A stretch of DNA of 35,600 nucleotides from Candidatus Iainarchaeum sp. Lineage in GTDB: Archaea > Iainarchaeota > Iainarchaeia > JAGGVJ01. How positions within the stretch are numbered: the stretch's first letter is position 1; every line of letters starts with the position of its first letter. Position numbers and translations under genes: made by a program. Positions 5,205 to 32,850 of the stretch are shown here, in pieces. The notes beneath the pieces are model-generated. The model worked only from the letters and a program-made list of their open reading frames with translations. It was not told the origin of the DNA and searched no databases. The DNA lies in NCBI GenBank assembly GCA_021158055.1, contig JAGGVJ010000005.1, forward strand, positions 1 to 35,600. Direction: 5' to 3'.

Positions 5205-6113
5205 ATGGCGACGACTTCATTTTACGATGAAATAAGCAGAAACAAAAGAAATTCAATTTTGCTGACAGGGTTTGTGTTTTTGGTTCTTGCGGCGCTGATC
5301 TATTCTTTTTCTCTTTTCATTGACGACCAGGTAATTTCAACACTGTTTTTGGCTTTTGCATTTGTTTTGGCTTCCGCGCACATTTTTGTTTCCTATAACT
5401 ACGGGGACAAAATAGTTCTCAAATCAGTCGGGGCAGTTGAAGCAAACCGCAACGACGTAAAGGACGTGTATTTTGTAAACACTGTTGAAGGCCTTGCGAT
5501 TGCAGCAGGGCTTCCGGCTCCGAAAGCGTATGTCATCGACTCAGGGGAACTGAACGCTTTTGCAACAGGAAAAGACCCGAAACACGCGTCAATTGCAGTT
5601 ACAAGGGGCTTGATGAAGGTGCTGAAGCGGGAAGAGCTTGAGGGGGTTGTCGCTCACGAGATGAGCCACATCAAGAATTATGACATCAGGTTTGCAACCC
5701 TTATTGCAGTGCTGGTCGGGCTCGTTGCCATATTGAGCCATATGTTTTTGAGGTTCGGCAGGTATGGCCTTGGAGGAAGAAGCAGAGGCAAAGGAGGTGG
5801 GATTGTCGTGCTGATTATTGTTTTTGGGTTTGTGCTTGCGATAATCTCCCCGCTTGTAACAAGGATGGTGCAGGCTTCGATTTCCAGAAAGCGCGAGTTC
5901 ATGGCTGACGCGGGAGGGGCAAAACTTACAAGGTATCCTGAAGGGCTTGCAGGCGCGCTTGAAAAAATATCAAAAACAAACAAGGGGACGCTTAAAGTAA
6001 GCGAGGCGGTTTCGCATTTGTTTTTCGCAGACCCTGTAAGGAGCCATCTTGACGGGCTGTTTGCAACCCACCCGCCGATAGAAAAAAGAATAGAGGTTTT
6101 GCGCTCAATGTAA
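5205..6113 (+). CDS. htpX: HtpX-type zinc metalloprotease
   Basis: HtpX is an M48 membrane protease that degrades damaged membrane proteins. The zinc motif HEMSH is at residues 151-155 and the third ligand is probably E231 in REFMADAGGAKL. Two membrane segments precede the catalytic domain (about 17-37 and 44-63) and two hydrophobic stretches follow the HExxH (about 165-183 and 199-218). The C-terminal THPPIEKRIEVL motif is characteristic. At 302 residues it is full length. The ATG at 5205 has GGTGGG just upstream. It forms an operon with lemA and ends at a convergent boundary with a hairpin at 6201-6220. Confidence 0.95.
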   Translation: MATTSFYDEISRNKRNSILLTGFVFLVLAALIYSFSLFIDDQVISTLFLAFAFVLASAHIFVSYNYGDKIVLKSVGAVEANRNDVKDVYFVNTVEGLAIAAGLPAPKAYVIDSGELNAFATGKDPKHASIAVTRGLMKVLKREELEGVVAHEMSHIKNYDIRFATLIAVLVGLVAILSHMFLRFGRYGLGGRSRGKGGGIVVLIIVFGFVLAIISPLVTRMVQASISRKREFMADAGGAKLTRYPEGLAGALEKISKTNKGTLKVSEAVSHLFFADPVRSHLDGLFATHPPIEKRIEVLRSM

Positions 6114-6200
6114 TTGAAGTGACAACTTGCATGAAATGAATGTAAAATGAGTCCGGAAGAAGCAAAGGCAGGATAAGAAGATGATAAAAAAGAAGAAAAG

Positions 6201-6220
6201 CGGGGCATTTGTCTGCCCCG
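6201..6220. terminator. Bidirectional hairpin between convergent genes
   Basis: CGGGGCA (6201-6207) pairs perfectly with TGCCCCG (6214-6220) around a six-base loop. Read leftward on the minus strand it is followed by a T-rich tract (complement of the A-rich 6180-6199); read rightward a T7 run lies at about 6243-6249. It separates htpX from the convergent membrane-protein gene at 6265. Confidence 0.5.
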
Positions 6221-6264
6221 CGTTTGCTTGTCAAATTTTGCCTTTTTTTGCTAGTTTATCTGTT

Positions 6265-6576
6265 TTATTCCAGTTCAATTTCTATCGGGCCGATTTTGCC
6301 TGCTACAAAGTTGTAGAGTAAAGCGCAGACTGCGCTGCCAATGAAACCGAACACGGCATATATTATTGCACCCATGACTGTTCCAATCAACCCGGCAATC
6401 AGGATTCCAATGAAACCGGCGCTTGCATCCAGTCCCATTATTGGAGCCAATGCAGATCCCGACACAGCAACCAGCAATGTTCCCACAACGCCCACTATCA
6501 GCACCATGGTTCCCATAAGGGCAGCTTCTATTTTTGCAAGGGACATTACCCCGATTTTATTTATCTTTTGTGTCAT
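6265..6576 (-). CDS. Small membrane protein, DUF3566-like
   Basis: This 103-residue protein has two long hydrophobic regions (about 18-45 and 52-90) rich in glycine and alanine and ends with YNFVAGKIGPIEIELE. The pattern of an N-terminal MSLAKIEAALMG, two or three membrane helices and a terminal IGPIEIEL matches small archaeal membrane proteins often annotated as DUF3566-like; I recognise the pattern but cannot name a function. GTGATGG precedes the ATG at 6576, and ACTTAAAAATTT about 50 bases upstream on the minus strand is TATA-like. It is probably transcribed alone. Confidence 0.7.
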   Translation of the reverse strand: MTQKINKIGVMSLAKIEAALMGTMVLIVGVVGTLLVAVSGSALAPIMGLDASAGFIGILIAGLIGTVMGAIIYAVFGFIGSAVCALLYNFVAGKIGPIEIELE

Positions 6577-7277: not shown

Positions 7278-8609
7278 TTATGTTCCGGGAAAACCCTGGT
7301 TTTCAAATTTTTTCATCAGCCCGCCGAGGGGACCGCGTTTTCCTTTTTTGAGCATTTTCATCATTTTCTGGGTTTTTTTGAATTCACGCAAAAGCTCGCG
7401 AATCTGCTCCGGTCTTGTGCCTGATCCCCTGCTTATGCGAAGGATTCTTGATTTGTTTAAAATATCTGAATTTAATGTCTCTTCTTCAGTCATGCTGTCT
7501 ATGATGTGCTTGAACCTCTTGAGCTTCTCCTCTGACTTTTTGAGTTCGCTTTTATCCAGCTGACCCCCAAGCCCCATCATCGAGACGACCTTGTTTAAAG
7601 GGCCAATTTTCTTTGCTGCCTCCAGCTGATCATAGAACATTTTCAAAGTAAAGTTGCCTTTCAGCAAATCTTCAGGTGAAAGGTCTGTTTCCGCTGTTAT
7701 CTCACGCACTTTTTCAAGCAGACCTTCAAGGTCTCCGTACCCCATTATTCTTGAAAGGTAGCGGTTTGCGTTGAATTCTTCGATGTCTTCAAGTTTTTCA
7801 CCGGTTCCGATAAAATAAACAGGGGATTCTGTTTTTGCGCACGCGCTTAAGACCCCCCCTCCTTTTGACGAACCGTCCATTTTTGTGACAATGACTCCGG
7901 TAACCCCCAAGGCGTCATGGAAAAGCTGCGCCTGTTTTCCTGCGCTCTGTCCCATGTCTGCTGACAGCACGAGAAGTATTTCGTGTGGCTGCAGTTTTTC
8001 TTTGATTGCCTTGATTTCAGTTATGAGTTCCTGATCAAGTCCGTGCCTTCCTGCGCTGTCAACCATTACCAGATCAAAGCCCTTGAATTTTTCAAGCCCG
8101 TGCCTGATTATCTCTACAGGGTCCTTGTTTTCAGGTTCACCATAGTATGGCACGTTGATTTTCTCGGCGTTTTGTTTGAGTTGTTCAAACGCCGCAGGCC
8201 TCCAGACATCTGCTGCTATGAGCCCGGTTTTCAAACCGCGTTTTGAGTAGTACTTTCCAAGTTTTGCAGTGGTTGTTGTTTTTCCTGCCCCGAACATCCC
8301 TACAAGAAGAACTTTTTTCCCGCGCGCGTCAAAAGTTTTTTTGGATTCGCCTCCAAGCACTTCAACGAGTTCGTCGTAAAATATCTTGACCAGCTGTTCT
8401 TTTCCTGAAAGCCCCATCATGGTTTTTTCCTTGAGGGCTCTTTTTTCTATTTTTTTTGATATTTCAAGGACTGTCTTTATGTTCACGTCGCTTTGAATGA
8501 GTGCACGCTGCATTTCCTTGATTACTTCTTTGACTGTTTTTTCGTCAATGAAAGTGGAGCCGCGTATTTTGTCCATTACCCCTTTTAGTTTTGTCCCAAG
8601 AAAATTCAT
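7278..8609 (-). CDS. srp54: Signal recognition particle GTPase SRP54
   Basis: SRP54 binds signal sequences and SRP RNA and docks with FtsY by paired GTP hydrolysis. The N domain occupies about the first 95 residues. The GTPase has a P-loop GMFGAGKTT near 104-112 (many relatives have GLQGSGKTT), DVWRPAA, the G3 motif DSAGR and TKMDGSSKGGG. The methionine-rich M domain at the end contains SRILRISRGSGTRPEQI, followed by QKMMKMLKKGKRGPLGG. The start chosen is ATG 8609; a TTG three codons upstream is possible. A TATA-like stretch lies about 20-25 bases upstream, so the mRNA may be nearly leaderless. The SRP receptor gene ftsY is in the next cluster downstream. Confidence 0.96.
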   Translation of the reverse strand: MNFLGTKLKGVMDKIRGSTFIDEKTVKEVIKEMQRALIQSDVNIKTVLEISKKIEKRALKEKTMMGLSGKEQLVKIFYDELVEVLGGESKKTFDARGKKVLLVGMFGAGKTTTTAKLGKYYSKRGLKTGLIAADVWRPAAFEQLKQNAEKINVPYYGEPENKDPVEIIRHGLEKFKGFDLVMVDSAGRHGLDQELITEIKAIKEKLQPHEILLVLSADMGQSAGKQAQLFHDALGVTGVIVTKMDGSSKGGGVLSACAKTESPVYFIGTGEKLEDIEEFNANRYLSRIMGYGDLEGLLEKVREITAETDLSPEDLLKGNFTLKMFYDQLEAAKKIGPLNKVVSMMGLGGQLDKSELKKSEEKLKRFKHIIDSMTEEETLNSDILNKSRILRISRGSGTRPEQIRELLREFKKTQKMMKMLKKGKRGPLGGLMKKFENQGFPGT

Positions 8610-8873
8610 TTTGATCAACGGTATTTATTTTGTCTTTTTATTTTGTCCTTAATAGTTTACTGTTTTTCAGCAATTTAATTGTTTTTCAGCATTGATTTTT
8701 GTTTGCCAATCGGCCATTGCCTGCTTTGCTGTTGGCAATTGTTTGTTTTGCCTGCTTTGCTGTTTTGTTTTAATGATTTCCTTTATAACTTTATAATATA
8801 GTATTTGGCTTTTATTACTTCTTTTATTACTATTTGTTTGTCTTCAGGCACTTTTTTTGTCTCAAGACAAACA

Positions 8874-8881
8874 TTTAAATA
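8874..8881 (+). promoter_or_regulatory. TATA box for a putative RNA gene
   Basis: TTTAAATA at 8874-8881 is a near-ideal archaeal TATA box. A start about 25 bases later would fall at 8901-8905, directly at GTGATGA (8903-8909). No protein-coding frame follows, which points to an RNA gene. Confidence 0.5.
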
Positions 8882-8900
8882 GCTGCTCTTCTAAGTTTTC

Positions 8901-9092
8901 TAGTGATGAGTATTATAGTCCCTACACCGAAGGCTAAGTGGAATTCAATGTATGCCTTTAGAGGCATTTGTACAGTCTTGGGAGTGTGGGGGATGAAGGT
9001 ATCTCATTAAAAGATTACCCGACCCGAAATAACTCAGATAAGTAACTTTTGGTTGATTGGGGGTCTAAAGCTCCTTCTTTAGTATTTTTCTT
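8901..9092 (+). ncRNA. Putative structured non-coding RNA, about 190 nt
   Basis: The stretch has its own TATA box and several hairpins: ATGCCT (8952-8957)/AGGCAT (8962-8967), with the outer TGTA/TACA arms extending it, and CTAAAG (9065-9070)/CTTTAG (9077-9082), the latter followed by a T-rich tract like a terminator. It starts with GTGATGA, a C-box-like motif, but I see no matching CTGA D box at the right distance, so it is not a standard C/D guide RNA. The SRP54 gene next door invites the idea of SRP RNA, but the helix 8 signature is absent. Identity unknown. Confidence 0.4.
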
Positions 9093-9124
9093 CTATATTT
9101 GTACCCATTTATAGATTTGGGGGA

Positions 9125-9163
9125 CTCTAAGGGCTTCTTTACCAAAAAGCTTTTATATTAGAG
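9125..9163 (+). other. Nested hairpin
   Basis: CTCTAA (9125-9130) pairs with TTAGAG (9158-9163), and AAGGGCTT (9129-9136) can pair with AAGCTTTT (9147-9154) with two G-U pairs; the two overlap slightly, so the helix is nearly continuous. The 3' arm includes TTTTATATT, which could also act as a TATA box for the next element, whose start would then fall near 9182. Confidence 0.35.
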
Positions 9164-9181
9164 GGGTTATATGTTTAAGTG

Positions 9182-9360
9182 TGGAGGTGGTTGAAGGTCT
9201 GGTTTGGTTTTGCCGGACAAACAACACACATAAGAATAATTGAGAGTGTGCGACGGGAACCATGGCCAAGGTCACCCAGCTAAATGGGAAATCACTGAAG
9301 AAGTGGCAAAAGGTTTTAGTCGATATATCAATTTGTAAAGGCGGGGTTTCCCTGCCTTTT
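9182..9360 (+). ncRNA. RNA-like element, copy 1, with terminator hairpin
   Basis: This carries the 19-base sequence AGAGTGTGCGACGGGAACC (9243-9261), then local hairpins CCCA/TGGG and CACT/AGTG, then a block TGAAGAAGTGGCAAAAGG... at 9296-9320. It ends in a strong hairpin, AGGCGGGG (9339-9346), TTT, CCCTGCCT (9350-9357), followed by T4 (9357-9360) and TATATT. Blocks recur in the same order at 9442-9511. Two short open frames exist, TTG 9191-9283 (30 aa) after GGAGGTGG, and ATG 9262-9387 (41 aa), but the hairpin and T-tract lie inside the second, so an RNA is favoured. Confidence 0.45.
9339..9360 (+). terminator. Hairpin with T-tract
   Basis: An 8-bp stem with one G-U pair and a TTT loop (9339-9357) is followed directly by a run of T. 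It looks like an intrinsic terminator for the element starting near 9182. Confidence 0.5.
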
Positions 9361-9441
9361 TATATTATTTTAACTATTAAAATTTAATAGCTATTTAAAC
9401 CCAGTTATCACTGTTTTAGCAGTTTTTATCAGAATTTGAAA

Positions 9442-9553
9442 AGAGTGTGCGACGGGAACCGTGTTTGAAGAGCGCCAGGTTTTAAGTAGGAAGGCGGTTC
9501 AAGTGATTCCCATCAAGCTTTGAGAATTCGTAGCATTATTTATGTGGATTCTC
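9442..9553 (+). ncRNA. RNA-like element, copy 2
   Basis: The identical 19-base sequence is at 9442-9460, followed after four bases by TGAAGAGCGCCAGGTTTTAA (9466-9485) and GGCGG (9493-9497), matching the order of blocks in copy 1 but without a 34-base insert. GAACCG (9456-9461) can pair with CGGTTC (9495-9500), and GGGAA with TTCCC. A further hairpin, GAGAATTC (9522-9529)/GGATTCTC (9546-9553), could close the unit. TATTTAAAC near 9391-9399 could be its TATA box. A 20-codon frame, GTG 9461 to TGA 9523, begins exactly where the ATG lies in copy 1. Confidence 0.4.
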
Positions 9554-9694
9554 CTTTATAAATCTTCCCCAATGTTTTTCGTTGTTTGCCGATACTTTTG
9601 GGCATCCGGGCGGATTTAATATGCGTTCAGCACATGTTTTTTTGTTTGTGTGTTTGCCGGTTGGTTTTTTTCAGAATTATCTTGCAAGATTCGG

Positions 9695-10282
9695 TTAGAT
9701 TAATAAATATATTGCAAGCACAACAAGTATCCTTGAAAGCACCGCAAGTTCGGTCTTGTTGGTTTTGTAAACAATTGCACCAAGTACGAGCCCTTCAGTT
9801 GCCGCAAATAACACGTTTCCAATCATTATGCCGTTGAAAAGCGTTGTTGCAGTCTGGCTCAATGCAAACAAAGCGGTTGTTATTGTTATTGCTGCTTTTG
9901 GGTTCATTTTGCAGCAGAAAAGTTTTTGAAGTGTTCCTCTCCAGAAAAATTCCTGCGCTGTCACAAACAAGAGAGTTCCCGCGAGAACCATCAGATCCAG
10001 TTCGTGCACAGGCCTGTTGAAAAACATGCCGATGCCGATGAATGCAACTGCAAGTGCCGCTGAAGCCGCAAGGCTTATTGCCACCCCGTTTTTGTCAGGC
10101 AGTTTTGGCTCAAAGTTCAGGGTGTAATTTTTTGAATATTTTTTTGTGAAAAAAACAAACGCCCCCAGCATAATGACTGCACTGAATACGTTTGCGATTA
10201 CGTCGTTTAGAAGAGAAAGACCGATAACAATTAAGGCAGTAAAAAATACCAGCCCGAAACTTCCTTTTTGATACCAAAGCAT
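9695..10282 (-). CDS. CPBP/CAAX-protease-like membrane protein, probably inactive
   Basis: The 195-residue protein is made of about six membrane segments and resembles the CPBP (Abi/CAAX-type) family: TAQEFFWRGTLQ at 108-119 corresponds to motif EExxxR, and FALSQTAT (139-146) to FxxxH. But the first glutamate is Q110 and the catalytic histidine is Q143, and the usual C-terminal HxxxN is not visible. It is therefore likely a non-catalytic relative, or the assignment is loose. It starts two bases after the ftsY stop, so it is cotranscribed with the targeting cluster. The role is unknown; prenyl-protein or bacteriocin-related functions of the family should not be assumed. Confidence 0.7.
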   Translation of the reverse strand: MLWYQKGSFGLVFFTALIVIGLSLLNDVIANVFSAVIMLGAFVFFTKKYSKNYTLNFEPKLPDKNGVAISLAASAALAVAFIGIGMFFNRPVHELDLMVLAGTLLFVTAQEFFWRGTLQKLFCCKMNPKAAITITTALFALSQTATTLFNGIMIGNVLFAATEGLVLGAIVYKTNKTELAVLSRILVVLAIYLLI

Positions 10283-15033: not shown

Positions 15034-15470
15034 AAAGACGCCGTTGTTTGTTTTTTGCCTGCAGTGCAACAATTTGTTTTGCGTTTACCAGGTTTGTTGG
15101 CAGTTATTGGCAATATCAATGTTTTATTGGCAATATCAATGTTTTATTGGCAAAATCAATGTTTTATTGACAAATTGACAAGCAGTAATCAAATCAGGGA
15201 ACCCTTTACGGTTGTGAATTGCCCCTTGCTTTCGCAGGGGACTTACAATAGCTTACAATGGGTTAAATATAATATAACTAAACAGATTTAAAAGCCTTTA
15301 TTTTAAAAGGAAAAGCAGTTAGTTAGTGGACTACAGGTTTTCAGGATATTTAAATCGCTGCAGATTATTTGGGGTTTTGTTTTGAAAGTATTACCAATAG
15401 TTTTTCTACATTTTTTCTGTCTGTTCAAACCGTCTTTCCGATAACTGTCTTTCTTTTTCCCATTGTTCAA
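15034..15470. other. Gap upstream of the YhbY cluster
   Basis: No gene is seen. The stretch holds the 20-base tandem repeats (15106-15175), a hairpin CCCCT (15222-15226)/AGGGG (15236-15240), and an AT-rich zone around 15260-15310 with TATA-like GATTTAAAAG at 15288-15297. The sequence 15406-15470 is the former coding end of the acylphosphatase-like gene (see that entry). Confidence 0.5.
15106..15175 (+). repeat. 20-base tandem repeats upstream of YhbY
   Basis: The unit ATTGGCAATATCAATGTTTT occurs at 15106-15125 and 15126-15145; a third copy at 15146-15165 has a single change (CAAAATCAAT), and a fourth, partial and diverged copy follows to about 15175. Near-identity shows recent expansion. Lying in the likely promoter zone of the ribosomal cluster, it may multiply a regulator or TATA-like site (the minus strand of each unit contains AATAAAAC or AAAACATTG). 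Confidence 0.8.
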
Positions 15471-15500
15471 TTATTTTTCCCATTGTTCAATTATTTTTCC
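15461..15500 (-). repeat. Exact 20-base tandem duplication at the acylphosphatase 3' end
   Basis: CATTGTTCAATTATTTTTCC at 15461-15480 is repeated exactly at 15481-15500. Because 20 is not a multiple of three, it changes the reading frame of the gene and creates the present stop codon. Confidence 0.95.
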
Positions 15501-15920
15501 CATGCTTATAGGTATAACATGATATTTTTCATTTAAAGTGTTGAATTTATCGGATGTTTCAGTTCTGAAAAGATTCATGTAATTCATGCCTGTGGAAAAC
15601 CTTTGCGCCATTTCTTGTTTGGAATCATTATATATTTCATGAAATCCTTTTTCAATGCAATTTTCGTCAATCTGATTACATTTTATATCTTCAACAGATA
15701 CTAAAGGTGCTTCTTTTGGATTTTTTAATGTTATTTTATATTTAAATTCATTTAATGTCTGTTCGTCCCCCATGCACCTTATTTTTACACTTCCATCTGG
15801 TTGGTTTTCTACAGTCCCATCAATCTTTAGTTCTTGTCCTATTTTGGCAACAAAATCTCTATACCCCACCTTTTGGACATTTCCACATATGATAAATTCC
15901 AACGCCTTTACGTTATTCAT
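15471..15920 (-). CDS. Acylphosphatase-domain protein, C-terminus altered by a 20-base duplication
   Basis: Residues 5-95 form an acylphosphatase-like ferredoxin fold: NVQKVGYRDFV corresponds to the VQGVGFR loop with the catalytic arginine, and GTVENQPDGSVKI supplies the conserved asparagine. A helical region of about 55 residues follows. The 20-base unit CATTGTTCAATTATTTTTCC is present twice at 15461-15500, and the second copy shifts the frame to a stop at 15471-15473. With one copy the frame would run on through ERQLSERRFEQTEKM to a stop at 15406-15408. The start chosen, ATG 15920, has a TATA box (TTTTATATATC, 15941-15951) about 27 bases upstream, so the mRNA is probably leaderless. By eye the codon use is more AT-rich than in neighbours. 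Confidence 0.8.
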   Translation of the reverse strand: MNNVKALEFIICGNVQKVGYRDFVAKIGQELKIDGTVENQPDGSVKIRCMGDEQTLNEFKYKITLKNPKEAPLVSVEDIKCNQIDENCIEKGFHEIYNDSKQEMAQRFSTGMNYMNLFRTETSDKFNTLNEKYHVIPISMGKIIEQWEK

Positions 15921-19867: not shown

Positions 19868-20569
19868 ATGGAACGAGTTTCTACCGGAATAAAGGGATTG
19901 GACGAAATAATCGGCGGCGGGTTTTTGAAGGGTTCAACCACGTTTTTAACAGGGCCGTCAGGTTCAGGCAAATCAATCTGGTCAATGCAGTTTTTGACAA
20001 TGGCTGCGCTTGAGTCCGACGAGAGCGGGATATACATTCCTTTTGATGAAACAACCCGAAACATCACGCAGTCAAGTTGCAATTTTGACTGGAAAATAAA
20101 CGACCTTGCAGAACGCAACAAGGTTGTGATTTACAGGCTGAAACCTGTTGACCTTCACAACTTTGACCCTGACAAGATAGAAAACAATCTGTTGAACAGA
20201 CTTGCATCAGTCATAAAAAAGATAGATGCGACACGCCTGGTGCTTGACTCAATGCTTCCCATAATGCTTCGCATGCAAGACGAGCCGCATAAGTTCTACG
20301 CCATCCTCCAGTATATCACAGACGCGACAAAAGAGGTCAATGTCACGAACATGTTGCTTGCGCCGCAAATGGGCTGTTCTCTTTGCGAAACCGCCCTGAA
20401 GGTAGCCGCTGATAACATAATAGAGCTTTCCTTTGAACCGAAAGGAAACTCTTTTGTCAGGTGCTTTTCAATAAAAAAAATGAAGGGCTTAGACCACCCT
20501 CTTGGAAAACAATGCTTTTCAATAGGAAAAAAAGGAATAACAGTTGACCCTGGAAAAAAGTTCATTTAA
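19868..20569 (+). CDS. KaiC-like RecA-fold ATPase (second)
   Basis: A 233-residue single-domain ATPase. STGIKGLDEIIGGGFLKGSTTFLTGPSGSGKS spans residues 5-36 with Walker A GPSGSGKS at 29-36; PFDETTRNI carries the acidic pair after it, and Walker B is RLVLDSML near 143-150. It differs clearly from its divergent neighbour (for example in the middle region and the cysteine-containing segment near CSLCETA), so the two are not recent duplicates. It ends convergent with the archaeosortase-like gene, sharing stop-codon bases (TTTAA). Substrate and partner unknown. Confidence 0.88.
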   Translation: MERVSTGIKGLDEIIGGGFLKGSTTFLTGPSGSGKSIWSMQFLTMAALESDESGIYIPFDETTRNITQSSCNFDWKINDLAERNKVVIYRLKPVDLHNFDPDKIENNLLNRLASVIKKIDATRLVLDSMLPIMLRMQDEPHKFYAILQYITDATKEVNVTNMLLAPQMGCSLCETALKVAADNIIELSFEPKGNSFVRCFSIKKMKGLDHPLGKQCFSIGKKGITVDPGKKFI

Positions 20570-21282
20570 TTTTTTTGATCTTGTCCTTTTTTGTCTGCTT
20601 TCTGCTTTTCCCAGCTTATTTTTTCTGTTTTGTTCAAAAACAAGTACCAGCAAAAAAGCACAAAAAACGCTGTCAACACCCAGGTTTGCTCGTGAAGAAA
20701 CAGCACCGTGTCTTTTTCAAACATGCCGCTGCTTAAGATTACGACGCTTATTCTCAACGCGTTGAAAAAAAAGATAACAGGCAAAAAAGCAATTGACAAA
20801 ATTTTTTCTTTTGAAGTTGAAGGGTAAGTGAGGATAAGCGCTGCAAAAATAGACATTGACACGACTCCGGTGCAGAGCTGAATGATTGAAAAGTCAAAAC
20901 CGCCAAACAGTATTGATGTTCCGGCAAGCGCTGCTTTTGGCTCGACAATGCTTACAAAAAAATGAACAGTGGCTGCAACCGCTTTTTTCAGCGGTTCAAG
21001 TTCAATAGACGTTGTGAGAAAGTAAAGCACCAAAAACACTGAAAAAAACCTTGCTATTACCACGGAGTTTTTTATTGAAGTGTTTTTTAACAGGGGCTGT
21101 TTTGCGTTGTTTTTTACAGAATCTTTTGTGTTGCCGGCTGCCGGGTGTTCAGCTTTGCCTGCTGTGGGGTGTTTGGCTTTGCCTGCTGTGGGGTGTTTGG
21201 CTTTGCCTGCTGTGGGGTGTTCAGCTTTGCCTGCTGCGGATTGTTTCCCGGTATTTTCCTGTTGTCTGCCGTTCATTGCCAT
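20566..21282 (-). CDS. Archaeosortase/exosortase-family protein
   Basis: The protein has about six membrane helices and the three conserved residues of exosortases: a cysteine in IIQLCTGVVSMSIF, an arginine in FNALRIS, and a histidine in FLHEQTW (C139, R179, H199 counted from GTG 21288). These enzymes are thought to process C-terminal sorting signals of secreted proteins. The N-terminal 50 residues are tandem repeats of the type AGKAKHPT, cytoplasmic and unrelated to the catalytic part. The ATG at 21282 overlaps the carS stop (TAATG), so it is coupled to a lipid-synthesis gene. No substrate with a clear sorting tail is seen in the window. Confidence 0.82.
   Translation of the reverse strand: MAMNGRQQENTGKQSAAGKAEHPTAGKAKHPTAGKAKHPTAGKAEHPAAGNTKDSVKNNAKQPLLKNTSIKNSVVIARFFSVFLVLYFLTTSIELEPLKKAVAATVHFFVSIVEPKAALAGTSILFGGFDFSIIQLCTGVVSMSIFAALILTYPSTSKEKILSIAFLPVIFFFNALRISVVILSSGMFEKDTVLFLHEQTWVLTAFFVLFCWYLFLNKTEKISWEKQKADKKGQDQKN
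21142..21242 (-). repeat. 24-base tandem repeats in the archaeosortase N-terminus
   Basis: A 24-base unit containing GCCTGCTGTGGGGTGTTTGG is repeated about four times with few changes, encoding in-frame copies of an eight-residue unit like AGKAKHPT. Units differ mainly by one residue (AEHP versus AKHP). Confidence 0.85.
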
Positions 21283-32134: not shown

Positions 32135-32779
32135 TCAGGTGTAACGCGCTCTTTTTTCTATTTCAGCTATTTTTTCAATAACTTTTTTATCACAATATCC
32201 TTTTGTCACAGCATTCCAGTTTTTCGGAAAGCCGCGCGAGTGAGTGGACGAAAGGGTTTTTTTAAGCACAAGCAAGTCAACTGCCTTGTCTTCAACTTCT
32301 TTTGAGACAAAGCCGAGCCCGAAGTCAACAAAAGCGATTTTTTTGTTTTCATCTGCTTCTGCCGGTATTATGTTTGAAGTTGACAGGTCGCCGTGAATCA
32401 CGTCTTTTGAATGAAGCTGTTTTATGTTTTTCCCGACTGTTTCCCAGTCCTTTTCCCCGAACTTTTCCAGCGACAGGTCTTTTAACAGAGTGCCTTCCAT
32501 GAACTCCATGCAGATTTCAAAGTTTTTCAAATCCACTGAAAAAACAAGAGGGGTTCTGACACCGCTTTGTTTTGCTTTGCTTAAAAGCCGTGCCTCTGAA
32601 CGCGTGCGTTCCCTTCGAAGCCGCTCGTCAAGTTCTTTCGGGCGGTATGTTTTTTGAATCCGCCGTTTAAGGATTGCTTTTCGGCCGAGAAATTTAGCTT
32701 CAAACACTTCTGCTTCCGCGCATTTTGCAAGCGTTTTTTTTAAAGTGATTTCCAGGTTTTGTTTTTTTTCTTTGATCAT
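32135..32779 (-). CDS. bud32: KEOPS kinase/ATPase Bud32
   Basis: Bud32 is the small atypical kinase of KEOPS, which makes threonylcarbamoyl-adenosine-37 in tRNA. The invariant lysine is probably K38 (AILKRR), the catalytic loop HGDLSTSN is at 129-136 and DFG at 152-154; the C-terminus EIEKRARYT matches the family. Here it is a stand-alone 214-residue protein, not fused to Kae1 as in some archaea. The start ATG 32779 has GAGG six bases upstream inside a 19-base tandem repeat; ATG 32791 is the alternative. A possible partner Pcc1 fragment is the ORF at 26295. Confidence 0.94.
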   Translation of the reverse strand: MIKEKKQNLEITLKKTLAKCAEAEVFEAKFLGRKAILKRRIQKTYRPKELDERLRRERTRSEARLLSKAKQSGVRTPLVFSVDLKNFEICMEFMEGTLLKDLSLEKFGEKDWETVGKNIKQLHSKDVIHGDLSTSNIIPAEADENKKIAFVDFGLGFVSKEVEDKAVDLLVLKKTLSSTHSRGFPKNWNAVTKGYCDKKVIEKIAEIEKRARYT

Positions 32780-32850
32780 TTTAATCCTCATTGGTCATTT
32801 TAATCCTCATTGGTTATTTTAATCCTCATTGGTTATTTTAATCCTGCTTG
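32778..32850 (-). repeat. 19-base tandem repeats over the bud32 start
   Basis: Units of 19 bases at 32778-32796, 32797-32815 and 32816-32834, with a fourth, diverged and partial unit to 32850, each read on the plus strand as ATTTTAATCCTCATTGGTT or with one base different. On the minus strand each unit carries GAGG followed by ATTAAAAT, so the ribosome-binding site and start region are multiplied. Only the last unit's ATG (32779) leads into the kinase. Confidence 0.9.

Follow-up and report, generated by a model that had tools for sequence, protein, structure and literature searches.

Several classes of archaeal RNA invite comparison with the element described here. The archaeal SRP RNA (RF01857) and RNase P RNA (RF00373) are structured RNAs, as the element may be, and the spacer that holds it adjoins the SRP54 gene. 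The archaeal box C/D and H/ACA guide RNAs are likewise small noncoding RNAs found in spacers; by eye, however, the element has neither the C (RUGAUGA) and D (CUGA) box pair of the former nor the ACA-tailed pocket hairpin of the latter, and it matches neither class in Rfam. There remain the archaeal intergenic sRNAs, trans-acting or protein-binding, which, like the element, are short, intergenic, structured and terminator-ended, have no coding frame and show a narrow phylogenetic range; the element is assigned to them by elimination and is known from sequence alone. The earlier note had recognised no known archaeal RNA, and indeed no Rfam 15 match exceeded the gathering threshold in the window, that is, the whole 35.6-kb contig analysed. 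Comparison of the gap with Rfam at E values up to 10 returned only sub-threshold, taxonomically senseless matches. As to individual candidates, a tRNA or split tRNA was rejected (ARAGORN found none in the window, and a genome-wide search with the tRNA model gave no match in the contig), as were SRP RNA and RNase P RNA, neither of which the element matches; the copies of this genome are at C42:24296-24568 and C14:49077-49311, respectively. A search of the literature returned papers on sRNA discovery in general but none on the element itself.

The contig belongs to a genome of 1.15 Mb in 45 contigs (95% complete), which was compared with the 86 other members of a set of 87 phylum genomes, all of one class, where it is the sole member of its family. 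The neighbouring genes (ribosomal L31e-like, eIF6, L18a-like ribosomal (LX), prefoldin, FtsY, CAAX protease and SRP54) all lie on the minus strand. The element had been placed in the gap after SRP54, which holds in plus-strand coordinates; in the sense of the genes, SRP54 being on the minus strand, it lies upstream of SRP54 and follows the CAAX-protease gene. At 1076 nt, this upstream gap compares with a median of 62 nt and a next largest of 475 nt among 30 class loci, this one included, and is therefore an expansion specific to this lineage. No open reading frame of at least 60 aa is fully contained in it; one 83-aa frame extends over its right end into the CAAX gene. Islands of higher G+C content (8900-9050, 9200-9350 and 9400-9550) are separated by A+T-rich stretches. 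The reading that we tentatively prefer is that the gap holds a lineage-specific terminated small RNA (copy 1) together with a partial, decayed duplicate of it (copy 2). The features are as follows.

7278-8618, minus strand: SRP54 gene
8619-9694: noncoding gap between the SRP54 and CAAX-protease genes
9142-9160, plus strand: weak BRE/TATA-like candidate promoter CCAAAAAGCTTTTATATTAG, read by eye, about 25 nt before a possible start near 9180
9240-9331, plus strand: predicted multi-helix body of copy 1, with an outer helix, a GGAACC/GGUUUU helix and three small hairpins inside
9243-9264, plus strand: 22-nt core of copy 1 (19 nt exact, then ATG), contributing the 5' strands of both the outer helix and the GGAACC/GGUUUU helix
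9337-9364, plus strand: intrinsic-terminator-like hairpin AAAGGCGGGGTTTCCCTGCCTTT (to 9359), then a T-rich tail
9442-9463, plus strand: 22-nt core of copy 2 (19 nt exact, then GTG)
9466-9503, plus strand: stretch of copy 2 further downstream, carrying TGAAGA, GGTTTTA and GGCGG, weakly similar to 9296-9344
9437-9533, minus strand: alternative hairpin of copy 2, with TATA-like GATTTATAAAGG near 9555-9566 and an CTCTTTTC tail
9695-10282, minus strand: CAAX-protease gene, which comes after FtsY

The identical 19-mer AGAGTGTGCGACGGGAACC reported at 9243-9261 and 9442-9460 proved to be exact, and the repeat lengthens to 22 nt at 95% identity as AGAGTGTGCGACGGGAACC[A/G]TG. By our own arithmetic, an exact 19-nt repeat within 200 nt is expected by chance about 0.0008 times per genome. 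A 16-mer taken from within the 19-mer occurs at these two sites only in the window, even with 3 mismatches (0.09 expected by chance), and at these two sites only in the entire genome with at most 1 mismatch. A pair of identical 19-bp sites at a distance of 199 bp, intergenic and set among AT-rich stretches, might suggest an element acting at the DNA level, such as a repeated binding site for a regulator or nucleoid protein or a replication-origin box in an AT-rich spacer. We regard this as very improbable, given that the genome offers just the two sites at one mismatch or fewer, that the 19-mer is not palindromic and that no replication-initiator gene was present among the window genes scanned.

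It is possible, but on balance unlikely, that the repeat is a non-functional short local duplication in an expanded, drifting spacer, the fold and the hairpin described below reflecting chance plus an ordinary terminator. The unusual length of the gap would agree with such drift, as would the abundance of short local repeats in this genome and a second exact repeat, of 17 nt, within the gap itself (8717/8748). A GC-rich exact repeat with a spacing of 199 nt is unusual, however: in a survey resting on about 133 kb of the genome, the local repeats were mostly tandem (8-48 nt spacing) or part of coding repeats, and, among noncoding repeats of 16 nt or more, only one other was identified that is dispersed rather than tandem. 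The latter, a repeat between two tRNA-Leu genes, shows the pattern that one would expect of related RNA genes and weighs slightly in their favour, as against slippage.

Beyond the 19-mer, both copies were said to share the blocks TGAAGA...GGTTTTA and GGCGG in the same order. The blocks are present, with TGAAGA at 9296-9301 and 9466-9471 and GGTTTTA at 9312-9318 and 9478-9484, so that the ends previously given for the latter (9320 and 9487) need correction to 9318 and 9484; GGCGG is found at 9340-9344 and 9493-9497, as claimed. Similarly, 34 nt do separate the 19-mer from TGAAGA in copy 1, but copy 2 has 5 nt at this place, and the extra length of copy 1 is accordingly 29 nt rather than 34. The interval missing from copy 2 corresponds to two of the predicted small hairpins of copy 1. 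For colinear-block similarity past the 19-mer, p was 0.005, 0.07 and 0.38 when 40, 70 and 108 nt of copy 2 were considered; for colinear exact blocks it was 0.002 against shuffles, 0.010 against random genome pieces and 0.040 against wider pieces. Both windows and blocks were picked after the blocks had been seen, and similarity past about 22 nt is therefore suggestive only.

In its predicted fold, the body of copy 1 is closed by an outer helix in which UUGA, GUGU and CGAC pair with GUCG, AUAU and UCAA. The plus strand of 9240-9369, terminator included, has a folding z of -3.43, and none of 200 shuffles was equally stable; without the terminator, the z of the body is only -1.95. When the 19-mer was kept fixed and the remainder shuffled, 0.4-1% of the shuffles matched the stability of copy 1, and 0.03-0.13% were equally stable with the GGAACC helix formed. 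Values of z of -3 or below were nevertheless reached by about 1.2% of 100-nt pieces in a scan of both strands of the window, so that copy 1 does not stand alone and its fold is suggestive only; the same frequency counts in favour of a chance fold in a drifting spacer.

The hairpin with a T-tract said to end copy 1 is indeed strong (10 pairs, 6 of them G-C). It is also strand-specific: the T-rich tail is present on the plus strand only, and the single wobble pair, G-U on this strand, would be A-C on the other. Copy 1 thus has at its 3' end, on the strand of the putative RNA, the hairpin followed by a T-tract that marks an independently terminated small RNA, and the strength and strand bias of this structure speak against mere drift. 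Among about 60 terminator candidates in the window, the hairpin at 9337-9359 is one of the strongest, along with that at 6200-6221. The latter, G+C-rich, with a T-rich tail on the minus strand and a weaker one on the plus strand, is flanked by the convergent genes 5205-6113 and 6265-6576 and is likely a bidirectional terminator; from its position it serves as an internal control, indicating that terminators of this kind are probably in use in this archaeon. As no plus-strand frame of at least 60 aa precedes the terminator at 9337-9364 within the gap, a transcript ending there would be non-coding or would carry a tiny frame only. The promoter candidates were read uncalibrated, the upstream regions of the tRNA genes of this genome being too variable to serve as a standard.

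Could the repeat instead belong to a small protein gene or its remnant, represented by the frame RVCDGNHGQGHPAKWEITEEVAKGFSRYINL or by a frame starting from the [A/G]TG after the 19-mer? Copy 1 does contain a 32-aa frame from the TTG at 9240, and a start-like codon directly follows ACC in both copies. Yet the 32-aa frame lies at the 5th percentile of codon usage, a score reached by 23% of off-frame pieces; it is broken in copy 2, and a 41-aa frame crosses the terminator. Neither Pfam, NCBIfam nor PDB yielded a convincing match, and the small frames, the 32-aa peptide included, had no significant match in the phylum genomes. More generally, the frames of the gap carry no coding signature, their codon usage being at or beneath the bottom end of the range of real genes. 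A coding origin is, of the explanations weighed here, a most improbable one.

Copy 2 behaves differently from copy 1. On the plus strand it folds like its shuffles (z 0.02), and the covariance model built from copy 1 (R1) found copy 1 in the window and not copy 2. The GGAACC/GGUUUU helix does reappear, under a GAAG-containing hairpin cap like that of copy 1, in the minimum-energy fold of a 49-nt sub-piece of copy 2; about 38% of shuffles of this sub-piece are equally stable. The two copies have in common the 22-nt core and, at best, perhaps this one helix round a GAAG-containing loop, rather than a whole structure. The reverse complement of copy 2, on the other hand, folds well (z -3.24), plus-strand mismatches becoming G-U pairs on the minus strand.

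This strand preference raises the possibility of a convergent pair of small RNAs, with copy 1 encoded on the plus strand and copy 2 on the minus strand (from about 9533 to 9437), which could pair as RNA and antisense RNA through 19 nt of perfect complementarity. The TATA-like GATTTATAAAGG upstream on the minus strand and the CTCTTTTC that comes after would be in line with such an arrangement, as would a predicted duplex of -73.7 kcal/mol. The stability of the duplex is inevitable, however, because the 19-nt match is perfect, and the complementarity is that of the known repeat seen from the other strand. Moreover, a z of this size is a top-1% event among many windows and not unique, and the promoter and terminator were read by eye. 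We consider the arrangement improbable. Less probable again is its fuller form, in which convergent lineage-specific structured RNAs of a DPANN-type archaeon would have arisen by duplication and inversion of transcription, the 19-nt complementarity letting one regulate the other.

The earlier interpretation is supported in part, since copy 1 does resemble a small structured RNA ended by an intrinsic terminator on the plus strand. The differing folds of the two copies, together with the want of further members in the 86 other phylum genomes, leave the proposal of a family of structured RNAs unsupported. Conservation in related genomes had been suggested as a check, and none was found in these genomes; none of them is of the same family, which makes the check a weak one. 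Over the 87 genomes, the covariance model of copy 1 brought only copy 1 above noise. Its weak matches in L049 and L050 were rejected as homologues, both falling within protein genes, and so was the single match to the 16-mer pattern outside the genome itself (one mismatch; best L006), which is inside a long protein-coding frame. With 681 bp of the gap as query, blastn against the phylum genomes at E 0.001 returned the query alone; a looser DNA search gave a 25-nt match in one genome (E 0.004) that spans the terminator region only. A scan of genome contigs with SRP54 revealed no close relative. The 19-mer was absent from IMG/VR contigs, and the 681-bp piece from plasmids and phages. That nothing is conserved, in either the DNA or the covariance searches of the phylum, also speaks for non-functional drift.

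The preferred reading, a terminated small RNA with a decayed duplicate, has to bear this lack of homologues, together with the differing fold of copy 2, the z of the body without its terminator, a gap expansion specific to this genome and the abundance of short repeats. If it is nonetheless right, copy 1 would constitute the body of a small non-coding, lineage-specific RNA, transcribed on the plus strand from within the gap and starting probably near 9180-9240. The RNA would fold into a branched structure, and the hairpin and T-tract would end the transcript. Copy 2 may then represent a partial duplicate of the 5' core of copy 1, decayed or diverged, which would have lost the outer helix and the terminator. 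Most likely, such an RNA would work as archaeal intergenic sRNAs ordinarily do, either by associating with a protein or by base-pairing in trans with mRNAs. The element is ordinary in kind, an orphan sRNA candidate, and settles no open question by itself. Should it be real, it would add one more orphan small RNA to an archaeal lineage in which few non-coding RNAs have been characterised and would indicate that the normally tight ftsY-srp54 neighbourhood can open to house an RNA gene.

Some further observations concern the gap and the rest of the genome. On the plus strand at 8873-9090, a TATA-like ACAAACATTTAAATAG precedes an island (8916-8993) that is rich in G+C and forms hairpins, and a weak hairpin/T-tract comes next (9059-9090). 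The z is only -1.4; this may possibly be a second RNA unit in the gap. A second diverged duplication was seen by eye at 9056-9081 and 9113-9141 (TTGGGGGTCTAAAGCTCCTTCTTTA and TTGGGGGACTCTAAGGGCTTCTTTA). In L073 of the same genome (C42), at about 876-990 on the plus strand, there is a tRNA-Leu-like gene with a CTTAGGA anticodon-loop context and an encoded CCA, which neither ARAGORN nor the Rfam tRNA model detected. It has 24 nt in common with the tRNA-Leu(CAG) gene at 1501-1587 and bears in its D-loop region an insert of about 34 nt, possibly a non-canonical intron. The window contains tandem repeats of 19-24 bp at 15104-15170, 15454-15503, 21143-21236 and 32776-32845, and similar tandem arrays of 17-21 bp are present in other pieces of the genome. 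The lowest folding z of the window (-5.6) belongs to 20101-20200 on the plus strand, within the frame of a KaiC-like gene (19868-20569).
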